From Arenicellales bacterium (GTDB taxonomy: Bacteria; Pseudomonadota; Gammaproteobacteria; BMS3Bbin11): a stretch of 64,000 nucleotides of DNA. Position 1 is the stretch's first letter; the number at the start of each line of letters is the position of its first letter. The notes beneath the pieces are model-generated. The model was given only the letters and a program-made list of their open reading frames with translations. It did not search any database and was not told the origin of the DNA. The stretch covers positions 1 to 64,000 of the forward strand of contig JARFQE010000072.1 in assembly GCA_029287915.1 (NCBI GenBank). Reading direction: 5' to 3'. Below, piece after piece: positions 10,531-63,960 of this stretch. Made by a program: the position numbers and the translations under genes.

Positions 10531-12909
10531 TCAGCCCTGTTGTCGCCGTGCCAGATCCAGCCAGGTTTCAATAACGCTATCAGGATTCAGTGACAGGCTA
10601 CTAATCCCTTCATCAACCAGCCAGGCAGCCAGGTCCGGATAATCAGAGGGTCCCTGTCCACATATACCAACATACTTCTTGTGCTTATGGCATGCCTTGA
10701 TCACCATCGATAACATCTTACGAATTGCCGGGTCACGTTCATCGAATAAATGCGATACCAGGCCTGAATCACGGTCCAGCCCGAGGGTTAACTGTGTCAG
10801 GTCGTTGGAACCAATCGAAAAGCCGTCAAAGTATTGTAAAAATTCTTCTGCCAGAACAACATTAGACGGCAGTTCGCACATCATTAATATTCTAAGCCCG
10901 TTTTCTCCGCGTTTCAGGCCATTTTCTGCCAGCAGTTCTATAATGGTTCTGGCTTCATCAAGGGTACGGACAAATGGCACCATTACCTCAATATTAACCA
11001 GCCCCATATCATCTCTAACGGCCTTCACGGCCTGGCATTCCATGGCAAAACTCTCTCTAAACTGTTCCGAAAGATAGCGTGACGTGCCACGATAACCGAT
11101 CATCGGGTTTTCCTCATCGGGTTCGTAAAGATCACCGCCCAGCAGGCTGATATATTCATTACTCTTGAAATCCGACAGACGCACAATGACGGGTTCTGGG
11201 GAAAATGCAGCAGCAATAGTTGAAATGCCTTCTTTCAGTTTACTGATATAGAATTCGATCGGCCCATCATAGCCGGCTATTCTTTCAGCGATTTGCTGCT
11301 GCAGAGACTCCTGTAGTCGACTGTAGTCAATGAGTGCCTGAGGATGAACACCAATCATTACATTAATAATGAATTCCAGTCTTGCCAGACCAACGCCCTG
11401 ATTCGGAAGGTTGGAGAAATCAAATGCGCGGGTAGGATTACCAACATTCATCATCAGTTTTACTGGCAGCTCCGGCAGATTATCCACGGCATGTCTTTCA
11501 ACTTCGAATGGCAGGATACAGTCATAAATACTGCCGGTATCACCTTCCGCGCAGGAGACGGTGACTTCCAGTCCCGTCTTAATCTTATTAGTTGCATCAC
11601 CACAACCAACGACGGCAGGAATATCCAGTTCGCGAGCTATAATTGCAGCGTGGCAGGTGCGTCCTCCTCGGTTAGTAACAATCGCTGCTGCGCGCTTCAT
11701 TATCGGTTCCCAGTCCGGGTCGGTCATGTCTGTTACCAGTACATCGCCGGGCTGTACATCTTCCATTCTGGATGGATCTCGGATAACACGAGCGACACCA
11801 CTACCTATACGTCTACCGATTGCTCTTCCGCTTGTTAATACACTGCTCTTTTGCTGTAAATGATAACGCTCAATAACTGCCTGACTTGTTTCCATGCTAC
11901 GAACGGTTTCAGGTCTTGCCTGTACGATATAGAGCTTACCATCCTCACCATCTAGCGCCCATTCAATGTCCATAGCTCTGCCATAGTGCTGCTCAATGTC
12001 CATAGCATGCCTTGCCAGTGTCTCTACCTGCACATCACTAATGCAGAAACGCGCGCGGTCGTGCTCTTCAACCTCGACAGTTCGTACAGATTTTCCGTGT
12101 TCTGAGGCACCGGTAAAAATCATCTTGATTGCCTTGTCACCGCGCTGGCGGCTTATAATCGCCTGATGGCCTGATGCAAGAGATGGCTTATAGACAAAAA
12201 ACTCATCTGGGTTAACCGCTCCCTGAACCACAGTTTCTCCTAGGCCCCATGCACCGGTAATGAAGACGACATCACGAAAGCCGCTTTCCGTATCAAGAGT
12301 AAAAAGCACACCTGAACTGCCAATATCACTTCGTATCATGCGCTGGATACCGGCCGACAATGCGACGGCTTCGTGCTCAAAACCCTGGTGTATACGATAG
12401 GCTATTGCACGATTATTAAACAGCGAGGCAAATACATGACGTGTGGCATTAAGCACATTACCAATACCTCGAATACTCAGATAGGTTTCCTGCTGGCCGG
12501 CAAAAGAAGCCTCGGGTAGATCCTCCGCAGTGGCGGAGGAACGAACGGCAACAGCGACATTACTACCATACTGTTGCTCCATATGATGATAGGCCTTACT
12601 GATCTCTTCCTGTAACCGCAGCCCCAGTGGTGCATCAATTAACCAGCGACGGATTTCGTTGCCAGTCTCGGCCAGCGCGTTGACATCATTGACATCAAGC
12701 CCCTGCAGTAGCTGGCTAATTTTTTTATCCAGCCCGTTCTCGGAAAGAAATTCGCGATATGCCTGTGCGGTAGTAGCGAAACCGCCGGGGACTTTTACCC
12801 CTGCGGCTGACAGGCCATTAATCATTTCACCGAGCGATGCATTTTTGCCGCCTACGATAGCAACATCTGCATTGCCAACTTCTTCAAGACCAACGACCAG
12901 CTTATTCAT
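10531..12909 (-). CDS. ppsA: Phosphoenolpyruvate synthase
   Basis: A 792-residue enzyme converting pyruvate and ATP to PEP, AMP and phosphate, the entry to gluconeogenesis. The N-terminal ATP-binding domain begins [11 protein letters not shown], the swivelling phosphohistidine domain has [13 protein letters not shown] with the active histidine at about residue 420, and the C-terminal PEP/pyruvate barrel has the [17 protein letters not shown] motif and [10 protein letters not shown] with the catalytic Cys. The length fits the family. The PpsR regulatory kinase/phosphorylase is not in the window. Confidence 0.97.
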
Positions 12910-56093: not shown

Positions 56094-58253
56094 TTACAAA
56101 TAAGTAAGCCTGGCAAAAGACAGTACCAGCCATTTGAGCCCGGCTGACTCGAAATTTACCTGTACGCGTGTATGCTCTCCCTTACCCTCTATGTTCATGA
56201 TAACTCCTTCACCGAATTTTCCATGTTCTACTCGTGTCCCCAGTGACAGGCCAGTTACTGCCTGTTCATCGGAGACACTGTCGTGTGCCTGCCATCGGGG
56301 CTGCTGAATACCGCTACGAGTCCTGACTTCCTCAATCGCTTCAGCCGGGATCTCTTTCAGAAACCGTGACGGTGATGTGTAGTTTTCACGTCCGTACAAT
56401 CTACGCACTTCAGCATAGGTAATATACAGCTGCTTCATGGCCCGAGTCATGCCAACATAACAAAGCCTGCGCTCTTCTTCCAGACGCGCGGGGTCATTTA
56501 ATGCATGCTGGGAAGGAAAAAGGCCTTCTTCAAGGCCAGTGAGGAACACCAGCGGAAACTCCAAACCCTTAGCTGAATGCAAGCTCATCAACTGCACACA
56601 GTCCTCCCATGCTTCAGCCTGACCCTCACCGGCTTCAAGTGCCGCATGGGCAAGAAAGGAAGAAAGTATATCCATTTCCTCTTCCTCATCCTGATAGTAG
56701 TTGCGTGCAGCAGTCACCAGTTCTTTCAGGTTCTCGACACGAGTCTCGGCCTTCTCCCCTCTCGCATTGCCGTGAAACTCAAGTAAACCGGTCTGAGCAA
56801 GAACATGCTCAACCTGTTCGGATAATTCCAGGTCTGTTATCTGTATAGCAAGTGCATCGACCATTTCGAGGAAACTGCGCAGTGCATTGGTAGCTCGAGC
56901 TGTAAGTGAACCATCCTGAACAAGTGCCGCCGCCGATTGCCACATTGAGATGCCGGATGATCTCGCCTTTTGCCTGACGATATCAACGGTACGATTACCT
57001 ATCCCCCTTGTCGGTATATTAACTATACGCTCGAAGGAAGTGTCGTCTTCATGATTAAGGGTCAGTCGCAGGTAGGCCAGTGCATCCTTGATTTCGGCAC
57101 GTTCAAAGAAACGCAGGCCGCCATATACACGATAGGGCATGCTGGCATTGAACAGCGCCTCTTCAAAGCTGCGGCTCTGGGCATTCGAGCGATAAAGGAT
57201 TGCGACTTCGGAACGCAGGTTACCCTGCTCTACCCACGAGCGTATACGTTCAACTGTAAAACGTGCCTCGTCTACCTCATTAAAAGCAGCATAGAGCTTT
57301 ATCGGTTCACCGTCCTCGCCTTCTGTCCACAGTGTCTTGCCCATCCTTGCAGCATTACGGCTGATAACGGCATTTGCCGCATTCAGAATTGTCGAGGTAG
57401 AACGGTAGTTTTGTTCCAGTCGCACCATTTCAGTACCGTTGAAATCACGTTCAAACTTTTGAATATTTTCAACTTTGGCTCCACGCCAGCTGTATATCGA
57501 CTGGTCATCGTCACCAACCACCATAATATGAGATTGCGGACCGACAAATTCTTTTAGCCAGCGATACTGAATACTGTTGGTATCCTGGAACTCATCAACC
57601 AGTACGGCACGAAAGCGCTCCTGGTAATGTCGGCGTAAAAATTCATTATTGTGCATCATTTCCCATGAGCGTAATAACAGTTCGGCAAAGTCGACCAGTC
57701 CAGATCGCTGGCAGTATTGCTCATATTCCCGGTATACGATGGTCCATTGCTGTTGCTGTGGGTCCTGACCAGGGAGCACATCAGCGGCGCGTCGACCAGC
57801 TTCCTTATGGTGATTGATAAAATACTGGCCCTGCTTTGGCTGCCAGTAGGAATCGTCTAACTCCATACTGGCCAGAATGCGTTTTATTACTCGCAGTTGA
57901 TCATCACTGTCTATTATCTGAAATGTTTCCAGCAGCCCTGCTTCCTGCCAGTGTGCCCGTAATAGCCTGTGTGACAGGCCATGGAATGTGCCCATCCACA
58001 TGCCGCCTACCGGGAAGCCCAGCATTTGCTCAATACGACCACGCATCTCGCTGGCTGCTTTGTTGGTGAAGGTAACGGCCAGTATCGATAATGGTGAATA
58101 GGAAAAAGCCTGCACCAGCCAGGCGACTCGATGTGTTAAAACCCTTGTTTTACCGCTGCCAGCTCCTGCGAGTACCAGCAACGGGCCTTCATCCGCTGCT
58201 ACCGCGCGGCGTTGTGGCTCATTCAGTTCATCGAGTAGGTATGATACATCCAT
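56094..58253 (-). CDS. uvrD: DNA helicase II UvrD
   Basis: A 719-residue SF1A helicase for mismatch and excision repair. It starts MDVSYLLDELNEPQRRAVAA with Walker A GAGSGKT at residues 30-36. VTFTNKAASEMR, GTFHGL, VDEFQDTN, GDDDQSIYSWRGA, QNYRSTSTI and SLHSAKGLEF are the further helicase motifs. The Tudor-like C-terminal end (GEGVIMNIEGKGEHTRVQVNFE) is present. UvrD is preferred over Rep because of the N-terminus and this tail. Confidence 0.95.
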   Translation of the reverse strand: MDVSYLLDELNEPQRRAVAADEGPLLVLAGAGSGKTRVLTHRVAWLVQAFSYSPLSILAVTFTNKAASEMRGRIEQMLGFPVGGMWMGTFHGLSHRLLRAHWQEAGLLETFQIIDSDDQLRVIKRILASMELDDSYWQPKQGQYFINHHKEAGRRAADVLPGQDPQQQQWTIVYREYEQYCQRSGLVDFAELLLRSWEMMHNNEFLRRHYQERFRAVLVDEFQDTNSIQYRWLKEFVGPQSHIMVVGDDDQSIYSWRGAKVENIQKFERDFNGTEMVRLEQNYRSTSTILNAANAVISRNAARMGKTLWTEGEDGEPIKLYAAFNEVDEARFTVERIRSWVEQGNLRSEVAILYRSNAQSRSFEEALFNASMPYRVYGGLRFFERAEIKDALAYLRLTLNHEDDTSFERIVNIPTRGIGNRTVDIVRQKARSSGISMWQSAAALVQDGSLTARATNALRSFLEMVDALAIQITDLELSEQVEHVLAQTGLLEFHGNARGEKAETRVENLKELVTAARNYYQDEEEEMDILSSFLAHAALEAGEGQAEAWEDCVQLMSLHSAKGLEFPLVFLTGLEEGLFPSQHALNDPARLEEERRLCYVGMTRAMKQLYITYAEVRRLYGRENYTSPSRFLKEIPAEAIEEVRTRSGIQQPRWQAHDSVSDEQAVTGLSLGTRVEHGKFGEGVIMNIEGKGEHTRVQVNFESAGLKWLVLSFARLTYL

Positions 58254-58407
58254 CAAATATTAGGCTTAATGAAAAATAAGAATTATCTTTGTTAGACAGG
58301 GAAACAGCAGTTTTGCAGCTCTCATTTCAAGTGTACTATATTAGCAGACTTTGTATTCTAATACTGTTCATGTAGTTTCACCTGAAGCCGGTTTAACTGA
58401 TGCCAAC
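58254..58407. other. uvrD upstream region
   Basis: AT-rich promoter-containing spacer with no gene; with the next entry it forms a 340-bp gap before the SMR gene. Confidence 0.4.
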
Positions 58408-59641: not shown

Positions 59642-60589
59642 TTGCTGCCTTTCTATCGACTGGTCTGTTTTCTGCTGTTTAGTATCCTTGCTTCCGGATG
59701 TGTGATGGAAGCTTTCAGGGATAGCGCCATTGAGAGAACTGAAAAAGCCATTGAACTGACATCAACTCCATTCTATCCCCAGTCGCGATATCAGTGTGGC
59801 CCGGCATCACTGGCTACCCTGTTAAATACTGCCGGACTGGATACCGATCCGGACCAGCTGGTAGCAGATGTATATCTCCCGTACCGTAAAGGCACACTGC
59901 AGATCGAGATGATTGCAGCAGTGCGTCGTTACGGTCTTGTTCCCTACCAACCGGCTCACGACATCGAGTCGATCATACATCAGCTGAAACATGACATACC
60001 TGTGCTGGTACTGTTGAACCTCGGCTTGAAGGCATTACCCGCCTATCATTATGCTGTGGTGATTGGTTATGATCCTGGCACAGATGTAGTGATTATGCGC
60101 TCCGGTACGGATTACCGCTTGCTGATGCGCCGACAACGATTTCTTTCCGCCTGGCACAAATCTGGTAGCTGGGCACTTACTGTTCTGGAACCGGGGAAAT
60201 TGCCGCCCGCTATCGACCTTGAGCGTTATTTAAGTTCCGTCATCGCACTGGAATCTGTTGGACAATGGCGATCAGCGGAACTCAGTTATCGTGCCGTATT
60301 AAGACAATGGCCAGCTAACATACTTGCACGTTTTGGACTGGCAAATTCTCTGCGCGGGCTTGGCAAACTTGAGCAAGCGGCAGCTCAGTATAGTAATGTA
60401 TTAAAACTGGATGAGAATCATAAACCCGCTCGGAATAATCTTGCAGACACGCTGCTGCGGCTTGGACGATGTGATGATGCATCCGCAGCTATCGAGCAAG
60501 TCGTGATTAGAAATGGCTTAACTTCAGTGATCGACAAAGCGGTTGAGATAACGCGTTCTGAAATTAAATCGACCTGTTTTCAAAGCTGA
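59642..60589 (+). CDS. PA2778 family cysteine peptidase with TPR repeats
   Basis: A 315-residue lipoprotein-like protein. The N-terminus has a lipobox (ILASGC), followed by a C39-like papain-fold peptidase domain with QCGPASLATLLN (Cys near residue 57) and HYAVVIGYD (His). Two or three TPR units occupy residues 200-300 (LESVGQWRSAELSYRAVL, LGKLEQAAAQYSNVLKLDE). The substrate is unknown. The apparent start is TTG, immediately after the PA2779 stop, implying coupled translation. Confidence 0.87.
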   Translation: MLPFYRLVCFLLFSILASGCVMEAFRDSAIERTEKAIELTSTPFYPQSRYQCGPASLATLLNTAGLDTDPDQLVADVYLPYRKGTLQIEMIAAVRRYGLVPYQPAHDIESIIHQLKHDIPVLVLLNLGLKALPAYHYAVVIGYDPGTDVVIMRSGTDYRLLMRRQRFLSAWHKSGSWALTVLEPGKLPPAIDLERYLSSVIALESVGQWRSAELSYRAVLRQWPANILARFGLANSLRGLGKLEQAAAQYSNVLKLDENHKPARNNLADTLLRLGRCDDASAAIEQVVIRNGLTSVIDKAVEITRSEIKSTCFQS

Positions 60590-60659
60590 CTTTCGATCGG
60601 CAGCAGCCGAAAGAAAAAATCGGCAATGCACTGGTCTGTATTCCTGGCAGGCTGGCGTG

Positions 60660-60927
60660 TGACCACATCATCGAGTAACAAAACTCCTGCCTCATCACTG
60701 GAGCAGATGAAATACTGGATGTTGATGGGTTTCGTGGCATGATCAACTAACGCCAGGCGCCATTCCATATGCTCTTCAGCATTGGACAATGGCATGGTTG
60801 CCTTTGCATTCGGAGACAACGCGAGTCGATTCACAGCGTCAGCGAGAACGCCAGAACTCACTTCTTGCAGTGCATGGGAGAATTGTCTTGGCGGGATTGC
60901 TACGAAACAAGCATGTTGAGCTAGTTT
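60660..60927 (-). pseudogene. 5' remnant of a phospholipase D family gene
   Basis: Directly after the glmS stop and in the same frame, a minus-strand stretch reads AIPPRQFSHALQEVSSG, then WRLALVDHATKPINIQYFIC and SSDEAGVLLLDDVV. This is the N-terminal part of YmdC/ClsC-like phospholipase D proteins (normally SxDxQYFIWxxDxxGxLLL). Signal peptide and both HKD catalytic motifs are missing, and the frame then runs into the opposite-strand gene end. Confidence 0.65.
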
Positions 60928-62043
60928 TTACTCAACTGTAACTGACTTTACCAGGTTGCGCGGGTTATCGACATCTGTGCCCTTTATCAACGCGATACGG
61001 TAAGCAAGCAACTGTAACGGTATGGTGAATATTATTGGCGCTATAATATCGTCAATGGGTGCGGCCTTGATGACGGTGAGGCCATCTGCTCCCTCAAACC
61101 CAGCATGAGGATCTGCAAACACGATCAATTCACCTCCGCGTGTCCTGACCTGCTGCATAGTAGACTTCAACTTTTTCAGCAATTCGTCGTTAGGTGCTAC
61201 GGCGATGACCGGCATTTCACTGTCCACCATGGCCAGCGGGCCATGTTTGAGCTCACCTGCAGGAAATGCCTCGGCATGGATATAGGAAATTTCTTTTAGT
61301 TTAAGTGCACCTTCCATTGCGACTGGGTAATGTATGCCCCTGCCGACGAATAGAGTATGGCGTTTGTTGCTGAACTTCTCTGCGATTTCCGTAATTCGCG
61401 CATCCAGCTGCAGTGCTTCTGAAATTTTCGCAGGTAAACTACGAAGCTGTCTGACAATTCTTTCTTCCTCTTCAGCGGCCAGAGCGTTGTGACGTCCCAG
61501 TGCAATAACCACCAGCAATAATGCTATTAGCTGCGTTGTAAATGCCTTGGTTGATGCGACGCTAATCTCCGGTCCAGCATGCGTCAGCAACACTATGTCC
61601 GACTCACGCGTCAGTGAACTTTCTGCAACATTACATATACATAACGAATGCTGGTAGCCAATTTCCCTGGCATATTTCAATGCTGCCAGAGTATCGGCTG
61701 TCTCACCTGATTGAGAAATCGTTATTATCAGACAGTTTTCCGGTACTACATGTGATCGATTACGAAATTCACTTGCCACTTCTACCGACGCGGCCACTCC
61801 ACCGAGTTCCTCCATCCAGTTACGTGCTATCAGTCCTGCATGATAGCTGCTGCCGCAGGCGATAACTTGTACATTGGTAATGAATTTGAAAACTTCCTCG
61901 GCTTCAAAATCAAAGGTTTTGGCTACCAGGTGATTACCGGACAACCGCCCTTCCAGGGTATTACGCGCCGCACCCGGTTGCTCATATATTTCCTTTAGCA
62001 TGTAGTGGCAATAGTCGCCGAGCTCGACGGTATTAGTAGTCAT
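60928..62043 (-). CDS. glmS: GlmS isomerase (double SIS) domain without glutaminase domain
   Basis: A 371-residue ORF equal to the C-terminal isomerase part of glucosamine-6-phosphate synthase (normally about 609 residues). CGSS (63-66) and SQSGET (110-115) bind the sugar phosphate, STKAF is at 164-168, and K248, E251, H267 and K366 correspond to E. coli K485, E488, H504 and K603. The C-terminus KSVTVE is intact. The N-terminal class II glutamine amidotransferase domain is not part of the frame; its wreck lies just upstream. It may be ammonia-dependent, act only as an isomerase, or be on the way to loss. The ATG at 62043 lies in the former linker and has no good ribosome-binding site. Confidence 0.9.
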   Translation of the reverse strand: MTTNTVELGDYCHYMLKEIYEQPGAARNTLEGRLSGNHLVAKTFDFEAEEVFKFITNVQVIACGSSYHAGLIARNWMEELGGVAASVEVASEFRNRSHVVPENCLIITISQSGETADTLAALKYAREIGYQHSLCICNVAESSLTRESDIVLLTHAGPEISVASTKAFTTQLIALLLVVIALGRHNALAAEEEERIVRQLRSLPAKISEALQLDARITEIAEKFSNKRHTLFVGRGIHYPVAMEGALKLKEISYIHAEAFPAGELKHGPLAMVDSEMPVIAVAPNDELLKKLKSTMQQVRTRGGELIVFADPHAGFEGADGLTVIKAAPIDDIIAPIIFTIPLQLLAYRIALIKGTDVDNPRNLVKSVTVE

Positions 62044-62579
62044 GTTAAACTAATGTAATTCCCTTTCCACGTCATGGCCAGTGATATCAACTGTGCAAAT
62101 AATATCAGGCGTAATGAGATCTAACATCACCATCCTCGAGGAGTATGAAATCATGCTTTTTTGTAAGCAGTGCCAACGGGCCAGGCGCAATAAAGTTCTC
62201 CATTACACAGACCAATGACCACAGTGCTAGCATGGGTTGCTACAGCCAGGCATCCAGGTTGCCTGATTGTTGAAGATTAACAGGTACCTGATGAACGACA
62301 GCCTCGCTGTCGGTACTGTAATTAAATCGATAGCCAATATTTCCTACACAGATATGAGCTAGTGTATTTTGTCTGCCCGTCTGGTACTTCTGTATAGCTG
62401 CTGATTCCATGCTCTGGTAGAGCTACCGCTTCTGTCGAGTGTTTACGCAGGATATTACCATTTGCATTAATAAATGCCAGGCCAGCGGAATCATTGTCTC
62501 TATATTACAGCCGCTTAAGGTCTTCCGTTAAAATGGCTGTTAGGTGACTATTTGAAACGCCAGCGGTGATTCATTACAT
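62044..62579 (-). pseudogene. glmS: Decayed glutaminase domain of glmS
   Basis: The first codon after glmU is ATG (62579), then TAA and TGA stand where MCG is invariant, then ATC (I). Recognisable pieces follow: ILTEDLKRL, a stop (E to TAA), YRDNDSAGLAFINANGNILR, then in another frame GYRFNYSTDSEAVVH, then LAVATHASTVVIGLCNGE, FILLEDGDV, and the linker DITGHDVERELH ending in TAG. Two internal deletions remove the Arg-Trp and His-Asn-Gly motifs. About 535 bp remain of the expected 720. The order and spacing match GlmS without doubt. Confidence 0.88.
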
Positions 62580-62583
62580 CATC

Positions 62584-63960
62584 TCAGTTCTTCTTCGACT
62601 CCGATTTTTTTAGCGGGCGCTTCCAGCCTTCTCTGGTTTTTTGATCGGGACGACTAAGGGTCAGCTCATCAGCAGGTGCATTGCGCGTTATAGTAGAACC
62701 CGCTCCAATGGTTGCTCCTCTACCTATTTCAACTGGTGCAACCAACTGGCTATCCGAGCCAATAAATGCATTGTCTCCGATTATGGTTTTAAACTTGTTA
62801 GCACCATCATAATTACAGGTGATTACGCCTGCTCCGATATTCACATCTGCACCAATTTCCGTATCTCCAATATAGGAAAGGTGGTTCACCTTGCTGGCGG
62901 AACCCACATGGCTTTTCTTTATTTCGACGAAGTTGCCGATATGGGCAAAGGAAGAAATCTCTGATTGTGGTCGTATACGAGAAAATGGTCCGATAATTGC
63001 CAGTTCTCCAATAGTTGAGTCTTCCAGCACGCTGTTCGCTCTCACTTCCACATCATCACCTATCTGCATGTTCTTAAGATAGCAATTTGGTCCAATAGTC
63101 ACGCGGTCGCCTAAAGCAACATCGCCTTCAATGATGACATTGATATCGATAGAGCAATCTTTGCCATGAGTCAAATTACCGCGCACATCAAATCGTGCCG
63201 GGTCACTGATAGCCAGACCTGATTGCATAAATATAGTGGCCTGATGCTGCTGGTAGATGCGTTCAACAGCTGCCAGATCCTGTCTATCGTTAATTCCAAG
63301 AATCTCGCTATTTTCCACTGGCTGGCATGTCTCGACATTTACACCGTCAGCTACTGCCATCTCAAATATATCTGTAAGGTAATATTCGCCCTGTGCATTA
63401 TTACATTCCAGCCTGGTTAGCCATTGTCTGAGTTTTCCTGCTGGTGCAGCAAGGAAACCTGTATTGATTTCATTTATTTGACACTGCTCTGGTGTTGCAT
63501 CCCGATGTTCAACAATTGACTTAAAGCATTTATATTCATCACGAACGATACGGCCATATGAGCCGCCATCCTGAAGATTCGCTGTCAACAGACCAACCGA
63601 ACGATTGCCGGCGGCCTGAAGCAAATTTTTTAATGACTCTGCTGATATCATCGGCACATCGCCATACAGGACGAGGACGGTTGAATCATCATTAACATGT
63701 GAAATGGCAATATCGACTGCGTGCCCAGTTCCATTCTGTTCTGGTTGAATAATCCAGTTTACTTCATCGTTGAGAATTTTCTCACGCAGTAACTCACCAC
63801 CAAATCCATAGACGACATGTAAACGTTCCGCACCCAGATCCGTACAGGTGTCCAGTACATGTTGTAACATCGGCTTGCCTGCCACTTTGTGTAATACTTT
63901 GGGCAGGTTGGATACCATACGAGTGCCTTTACCGGCAGCAAGGATGATGACTTCAAGCAT
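62584..63960 (-). CDS. glmU: Bifunctional N-acetylglucosamine-1-phosphate uridyltransferase / glucosamine-1-phosphate acetyltransferase
   Basis: A 458-residue enzyme making UDP-GlcNAc. The N-terminal pyrophosphorylase has LAAGKGTRMVSNLPKVLH (residues 7-24) and LYGDVPMI; the C-terminal left-handed beta helix has IGDDVEVRANS, FVEIKKSHVG, HLSYIGDTEIG and NYDGANKFKTIIG. It is complete and directly upstream of the damaged glmS gene (the ATG of the remnant begins 4 nt after the glmU stop). Confidence 0.97.
   Translation of the reverse strand: MLEVIILAAGKGTRMVSNLPKVLHKVAGKPMLQHVLDTCTDLGAERLHVVYGFGGELLREKILNDEVNWIIQPEQNGTGHAVDIAISHVNDDSTVLVLYGDVPMISAESLKNLLQAAGNRSVGLLTANLQDGGSYGRIVRDEYKCFKSIVEHRDATPEQCQINEINTGFLAAPAGKLRQWLTRLECNNAQGEYYLTDIFEMAVADGVNVETCQPVENSEILGINDRQDLAAVERIYQQHQATIFMQSGLAISDPARFDVRGNLTHGKDCSIDINVIIEGDVALGDRVTIGPNCYLKNMQIGDDVEVRANSVLEDSTIGELAIIGPFSRIRPQSEISSFAHIGNFVEIKKSHVGSASKVNHLSYIGDTEIGADVNIGAGVITCNYDGANKFKTIIGDNAFIGSDSQLVAPVEIGRGATIGAGSTITRNAPADELTLSRPDQKTREGWKRPLKKSESKKN

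Follow-up and report, generated by a model that had tools for sequence, protein, structure and literature searches.

A glmS gene with a decayed glutaminase half and a conserved isomerase half in an Arenicellales bacterium: a candidate ammonia-fed glucosamine-6-phosphate synthase

Analysis of a window of 64,000 nt (the whole stretch of DNA under study, which is contig C33 of an Arenicellales genome assembly, hereafter G000, comprising 2.78 Mb in 139 contigs with 95.7% completeness) revealed that the two halves of glmS have met different fates: the glutaminase half is a pseudogene, and the isomerase half, which retains its catalytic residues, is kept by purifying selection. We regard both this anatomy and the selection on the isomerase half as well supported, with very little doubt attached to either. 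In textbooks, GlmS is the glutamine-dependent step with which peptidoglycan and lipopolysaccharide synthesis begins. The reading toward which we lean is that this gene, once a complete glmS, lost the glutaminase domain without leaving its native locus and persists as a stand-alone isomerase that would form glucosamine-6-phosphate (GlcN6P) with free ammonia. The features on which the analysis is built are as follows:

60928..62043, (−) strand, isomerase-half ORF of 371 aa with both SIS domains (E. coli residues 238–608)
62044..62579, (−) strand, decayed glutaminase half of glmS, as aligned with glmS of four relatives (G002, G003, G005, and G007)
62050..62190, (−) strand, 46-codon remnant ORF in the same frame as the 371-aa ORF
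62584..63960, (−) strand, glmU, full-length frame of 458 aa directly upstream of the glmS remains (TIGR01173)
56094..58256, (−) strand, UvrD/Rep-type helicase gene (named by reading), beyond glmS in the relatives; referred to as uvrD and used as the control gene in the rate tests

The glmU frame scored 610 bits against TIGR01173 (cut-off, 366.85). Comparison of the locus with close relatives, which had been recommended along with the original prediction, revealed an intact native glmS of 611 codons after glmU in each of three same-genus genomes (G002, G003, and G005); in G007, from the same family, glmS also follows glmU and is cut by the contig end. By eye, glmS starts ~20 bases or less past the end of glmU in all four. 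Alignment with the same-genus glmS showed that the 536 bp upstream of the 371-aa ORF are the counterpart of glmS codons 1–240. This segment carries in-register stops at codons 2 (TAA), 3 (TGA), 25 (TAA), and 238 (TAG), the first of which replaces the Cys codon TGC of the four relatives, as well as deletions of 44, 63, 76, and 2 bp and a 1-bp insertion; in total, 65 of the 240 codons are lost or broken. The alignment thus confirmed the early stops, lost Cys, frameshifts, and linker TAG originally read from the letters alone, and it also confirmed that there are deletions, but with three large ones rather than the two that had been counted. Owing to these stops, frameshifts, and deletions and to the lost Cys codon, the locus lacks the class-II glutaminase domain with a nucleophile Cys that characterizes a glutamine-dependent GlmS. 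The DNA identity of the glutaminase half to G002, G003, and G005 was 60–62% (those three versus each other in the same region: 72–78%), and that of the isomerase half was 72–74%. An assembly error is unlikely, because the decayed half has diverged through substitutions and not only through lesions.

The TAG that ends the 46-codon remnant ORF lies 6 nt upstream of the ATG of the 371-aa ORF, and translational re-initiation from the former onto the latter is possible on this arrangement. Upstream of the 371-aa ORF, we saw no Shine-Dalgarno sequence at good spacing by eye and found no consensus promoter in a scan; the promoter and terminator scans returned 4 and 1 sites, respectively, below the shuffle means of 6.5 and 2.8. 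The locus DNA was matched with 157 plasmid records, none covering 80%. Just downstream of the glmS remnant there is a 93-aa ORF (window positions 60580–60861, (−) strand) that had no match in NCBIfam or Pfam and shares 10 bases with the end of a gene for a C39-type peptidase.

The 371-aa ORF shows zero stops and zero gaps against G002, G003, and G005, which bears out the claim of a lesion-free SIS half. It scored 470 bits against TIGR01135 (curated cut-off, 418), from profile positions 241–607 only, and matched PF01380 in two stretches. According to the alignment offsets, the ORF starts at E. coli residue 238 and the crystallized isomerase domain 1moq starts at residue 241; therefore, dead sequence gives way to living sequence at the boundary between the two domains. 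The AlphaFold2 model of the 371-aa protein had a mean pLDDT of 80 and a pTM of 0.84, with pLDDT below 50 at residues 1–4, 257–267, and the tail (362–371). Foldseek placed the E. coli isomerase-domain crystal 7dnr at rank 1, 1mos at rank 5, and 1moq at rank 9, with full-length E. coli GlmS entries filling the ranks between them; these E. coli matches had TM scores of 0.88–0.89 by query length and 54–55% identity.

In agreement with the original prediction that the isomerase Lys, Glu, and His residues are retained, Lys485, Glu488, His504, and Lys603 (E. coli numbering) are all present. The other substrate-site residues that we checked are also kept, except for Thr302, which is Ser. Lys485 and Glu488 are named as GlmS residues in PMC7948480. 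Among 47 intact homologues, 98 columns are conserved at ≥97%, and the 371-aa protein departs from the consensus at 8 of these, compared with none or one in each of the three same-genus homologues, 7 or 8 in some distant homologues, and 15 in a foreign glmS of the congener G001 (see below). This homologue set comprised 52 loci minus L049, a letter-for-letter duplicate of the start of a G005 contig, and minus L031, L034, L067, and L071, which failed a filter (start MCGI, more than 560 residues, and end TVE); the foreign G001 gene was retained. Two of the 69 fully invariant columns are changed in the 371-aa protein (Asn532 to Thr and Ala602 to Val), and Val at position 602 is absent from all 47 intact homologues compared. 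As described in PMC7948480, Ala676 of human GFAT2 makes contact with Trp93, which corresponds to Trp74 of the glutaminase lid. The same text pairs Lys559 with Lys485, and applying that offset of 74 to Ala676 gives Ala602. Judging from this correspondence, loss of the Trp74 partner along with the glutaminase domain would free site 602. We also considered convergence of the active site on NagB-II (T302S, G398S, and Y497F) and found no support for it, since such changes (3 of 12) were not significantly more frequent than in other GlmS (26 of 181).

To measure selection on the two halves, we used a codon model in which branch lengths were shared over glmU, uvrD, and both halves of glmS and the G000 branch was set against the other branches. 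All tests were run with G000 placed in two ways, T0 (the best tree) and T2, while T1, the worst fit, was used for the free fit only. On T0, dN/dS on the G000 branch versus elsewhere was 0.17 versus 0.036 for the isomerase half, 0.56 versus 0.068 for the glutaminase half, 0.11 versus 0.082 for glmU, and 0.05 versus 0.055 for uvrD, these absolute values being rough because synonymous sites are near saturation; the result held on both T0 and T2. On the second tree, the corresponding G000-branch values were 0.12, 0.38, 0.09, and 0.06, with backgrounds nearly equal to those of T0. In the anchored model, dN/dS = 1 was rejected for the isomerase half (P = 1.7e-5 on T0 and 6e-33 on the second tree), as were the dN/dS of the relatives (P = 2e-10 and 2e-9), a decay as long as that of the glutaminase half (P = 3e-9 and 4e-8), and the alternative that this half simply shares the slight increase shown by glmU (P = 4e-7 and 2e-7). 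For the glutaminase half, dN/dS = 1 across the whole branch was also rejected (P = 0.036 on T0 and 2e-10 on the second tree), as expected if this half was still alive on the early part of the G000 branch. When the codon model was fitted to glmS only, the isomerase half remained compatible with dN/dS = 1 (2 delta lnL, 1.4), because the branch length is not identifiable beside a distant outgroup and the glmU and uvrD anchors are needed.

The count of lesions agrees with the codon model. We simulated neutral lesions over the 175 aligned codons of the dead half on both trees, a rough model in which all sites are alike; it predicted 4.1 stops, and 4 were observed. For the isomerase half, the same neutral exposure gives 8.8 expected stops and 7.7 expected indels, compared with 0 observed, and the half came out stop-free in 0 of 2,000 runs; in a variant run on the first 175 codons of a relative's half, the stop-free fraction was 0.0005. 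The neutral substitution and lesions that would mark a pseudogene are thus missing across the isomerase half (zero lesions versus ~16 expected). Lineage-specific replacements, counted where three relatives agree and with three stops set aside, were conservative in 44 of 50 cases in the isomerase half versus 23 of 48 in the dead half (P = 2.5e-5). Together, the lesion counts, the glmU/uvrD-anchored codon model, and the conservative replacements uphold the original prediction that selection maintains the isomerase half as a free protein, and the dN/dS values computed per half, as had been proposed, place this half at 0.12–0.17, not near 1.

Constraint on the isomerase half is nevertheless 3- to 5-fold weaker than in the relatives, whereas that on uvrD is unchanged and that on glmU is hardly relaxed. 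Relative-rate tests with G007 as the outgroup, which covers 261 of the 371 codons, showed excess change in the isomerase half (29 versus 9, 29 versus 14, and 31 versus 10; P = 0.001 to 0.022). In glmU, there was an excess versus G005 only (29 versus 15; P = 0.035) and none versus G001 and G003, and uvrD showed no excess in four comparisons with congeners as the reference. The weaker constraint, and with it the change of Ala602 to Val, would follow from loss of the domain interface and the channel; the faster evolution also fits a protein of falling importance.

A search of G000 for other routes to GlcN6P found no second glmS and no free glutaminase half of the class-II type in the assembled genome (95.7% complete). 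The remaining class-II glutaminase matches are frames of 517 and 691 aa, which by size and match range are probably PurF- and AsnB-like. The SIS matches comprise the 371-aa ORF, a putative KdsD-like frame, and one weak place below the cut-off, making the 371-aa ORF the only GlmS-type isomerase found in the assembly. GlcN6P is still needed because glmM, which is over its cut-off, and glmU are present, and the 371-aa protein is the only candidate for making it that we found in assembled G000. Of the escapes suggested at the outset, a second glmS copy thus received no support from the assembly. NagB running in reverse was rejected: the sole PF01182 protein of G000 is a 6-phosphogluconolactonase (185 bits against TIGR01198; cut-off, 124), on which nagB models reached only 24–40 bits (cut-offs of 237 or more). 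A fission of glmS with the glutaminase half moved elsewhere was rejected within the assembly, there being no free glutaminase half. Salvage or catabolism of GlcNAc through NagA is weakened, as nagA had no match in any of the six family genomes tested (G000 and five relatives), although its model found matches in all 14 control genomes and exceeded its cut-off in 7 of them; as far as G000 is assembled, NagA salvage has no gene. Finally, a full-length pgi over the cut-off is present in G000, and pgi is also present in the five relatives tested, so the suggested role as a sugar-phosphate isomerase, at least as a phosphoglucose isomerase substitute, is less needed.

To search for other isomerase-only glmS genes, we surveyed 370 gammaproteobacterial genomes (G000 among them), each at least 90% complete. 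In 354 of them a match exceeded the cut-off for glmS; the other 16 had none, three of these being tiny genomes of 0.3–0.4 Mb. Thirteen genomes were searched again (12 with best E-values of ~1e-202 to 1e-46 and one nearly matchless), with frames read in six; eight genomes at 1e-24 to 1e-30 and the three tiny matchless ones were left out of this step. Contig-end breaks accounted for eight (G082, G174, G243, G286, G315, G324, G349, and G369), full-length frames for three (G121, G151, and G222), and a NagB-II-like gene for G177, while nothing was found in G106. With these 13 odd cases searched again, no other isomerase-only glmS was found among the 369 other genomes sampled. Two of the full-length frames belong to 1.2-Mb genomes of one family and encode very divergent GlmS:

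L083 1498–3249, divergent GlmS of G121, frame of 583 aa
L084 1498–3216, divergent GlmS of G222, frame of 572 aa

G106 (L093), a 1.8-Mb genome given as 100% complete, has only weak SIS and glutaminase matches to the glmS model. G177 has no assembled glmS and carries kinase-like, NagB-II-like SIS, and nagA-like genes in a row, a nag-type cluster (L091 554–3813; named by reading). Its NagB-II-like SIS protein scores 265 bits with PDB chain 7kqa_A, which was deposited as 'Iron dicitrate transport regulator FecR', a name that looks wrong from this match.

Native glmS has been disrupted in two or more members of the genus, and the foremost rival explanation is therefore a hidden second glmS in G000. 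The congener G001 (99% complete) has only ~30 recognizable native glmS codons after glmU (L036, about 10808–10900) and a foreign full-length glmS on another contig (L037 6317–8167), 42–43% identical to the isomerase half and adjoined by an AAA/OmpA-like gene and a nucleotide-sugar dehydrogenase-like gene (named by reading). By this precedent, a complete second glmS might sit in the unassembled part of the 139-contig G000 assembly, with the native half a leftover whose intact look is chance or in a minor role, and assemblies can indeed lack glmS, as seen in the 16 survey genomes above and in the congeners G004 and G006, which have no glmS match (71% and 75% complete; among the family's eight genomes). 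We consider this explanation unlikely, though it is the main rival: of the two neighbors of the foreign G001 gene, one had no match in G000 (a search with no positive control) and the other matched only at its OmpA-like end, and a free leftover should have accumulated ~9 stops and ~8 indels, with 44 conservative replacements out of 50 being an unexpected share for it. If instead the whole glmS is dying and the isomerase half was released only recently, its dN/dS of 0.17 could correspond to 14% of the branch without constraint; however, even such a release predicts ~3 stops and 2 indels, the joint chance of none being ~0.007, and the replacements are mostly conservative, all of which leaves this course of events very improbable.

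Other rivals accept the selection and assign the half a different task. It might be kept for another reaction, be it phosphoglucose isomerization, GlcN6P deamination that balances the pool, or isomerization of another sugar phosphate, and the relaxed dN/dS fits a changed role. Phosphoglucose-isomerase-like activity of the C-terminal domain of E. coli GlmS was, by the title of a 1996 paper by Leriche, reportedly observed. PMC7948480 likewise ascribes such activity to this domain. We rate this explanation slightly below the hidden second copy and thus also as unlikely, since it leaves the supply of GlcN6P unexplained, a full-length pgi is present in G000 and the five relatives, and a catabolic route finds no nagA match in the six genomes. 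By comparison, an annotated nagA adjoins four of the six NagB-II-like plasmid genes that we opened (one of the other two records is unannotated, and one is without nagA), and the NagB-II-like gene of G177 adjoins a nagA-like gene by reading. A two-protein enzyme, in which another glutaminase or amidotransferase would hand over ammonia in trans by contact, could draw on the class-II glutaminase domains of the PurF- and AsnB-like frames. Both frames, however, are of ordinary size for their own jobs, a free class-II glutaminase domain was not found in G000, and the channel position Ala602 is changed, and we give such a pairing little credence.

Synthesis of GlcN6P from free ammonia, which we judge somewhat probable, is the most economical reading of the 371-aa protein from its sequence and genomic setting. 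The isomerase domain of E. coli GlmS is a dimer. The 371-aa protein would probably form a dimer as well and bind fructose-6-phosphate (Fru6P), taking ammonia from solution and not via a channel from a glutaminase; GlcN6P would be passed to GlmM and GlmU, which would pull the reversible reaction forward, and the cell would then depend on a supply of free ammonium. GlmS of E. coli is regarded as a poor user of free ammonia or as unable to use it; our literature search found no paper on its use of free ammonia. There are precedents for the chemistry. Archaeal enzymes similar to the isomerase domain are classed as a third type, one that has GlcN6P synthase activity, and NagB is described as reversible and usually catabolic, with a Giardia deaminase of another fold family as an anabolic exception that efficiently makes GlcN6P from Fru6P and ammonia (PMC4281351). 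GlmD of P. furiosus was put into yeast with an ammonium transporter for glucosamine output, and the output with ammonium was attributed in that study to formation of GlcN6P from Fru6P and NH3 (PMC12385614). Most glutamine amidotransferases can use exogenous ammonia (PMC10526850).

The stronger proposal, under which this cell has no route to GlcN6P and the cell wall other than a GlmS whose glutaminase was lost in place and which has long been kept as an ammonia-dependent synthase, is more tentative, and we put it at somewhat less than an even chance. If true, it would mean that an amidotransferase has reverted to a simple enzyme using ammonia. A natural isomerase-only sole copy would show that the glutaminase half is dispensable, would make cell-wall synthesis dependent on free ammonium, and would provide a natural experiment on which isomerase residues serve the channel alone; the use of free ammonia by the isomerase half is directly testable with one protein. 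A search of the open-license literature, by title and the start of the abstract and with most subscription papers outside its scope, found no report of glmS without the glutaminase domain, of its decay, or of an ammonia-dependent GlmS.

Among known systems, the closest is GlmS itself (TIGR01135, NF001484), with which the 371-aa protein shares 54–55% identity over its length to the E. coli isomerase domain, the fold, the catalytic residues, and the native gene position after glmU; unlike GlmS, it has neither a glutaminase domain nor the nucleophile Cys, and its channel residue Ala602 is Val. The E. coli isomerase-domain crystals (1moq, 1mos, and 7dnr) match it in extent (368 residues in 1moq versus 371) but were deposited as a domain of a two-domain enzyme, whereas here the domain stands alone in the genome. 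GlmD (NF041128) and NagB-II (NF046059) likewise consist of SIS domains only and act on Fru6P, GlcN6P, and ammonia with no glutaminase involved, the same chemistry that we propose. However, the 371-aa ORF scores only 118 bits for NF041128 (cut-off, 580) and 142 bits for NF046059 (cut-off, 430), it derives from GlmS and still occupies the native glmS position, and the nagA gene that often adjoins NagB-II-like genes (four of six opened) was not found in G000. An ammonia-specific carbamoyl phosphate synthetase of frogs, reportedly the subject, by title, of a 2003 paper, is likewise an amidotransferase relative that relies on ammonia, as proposed for the 371-aa protein. The frog enzyme retains its dead glutaminase domain, whereas the corresponding half of glmS in G000 has become a pseudogene.
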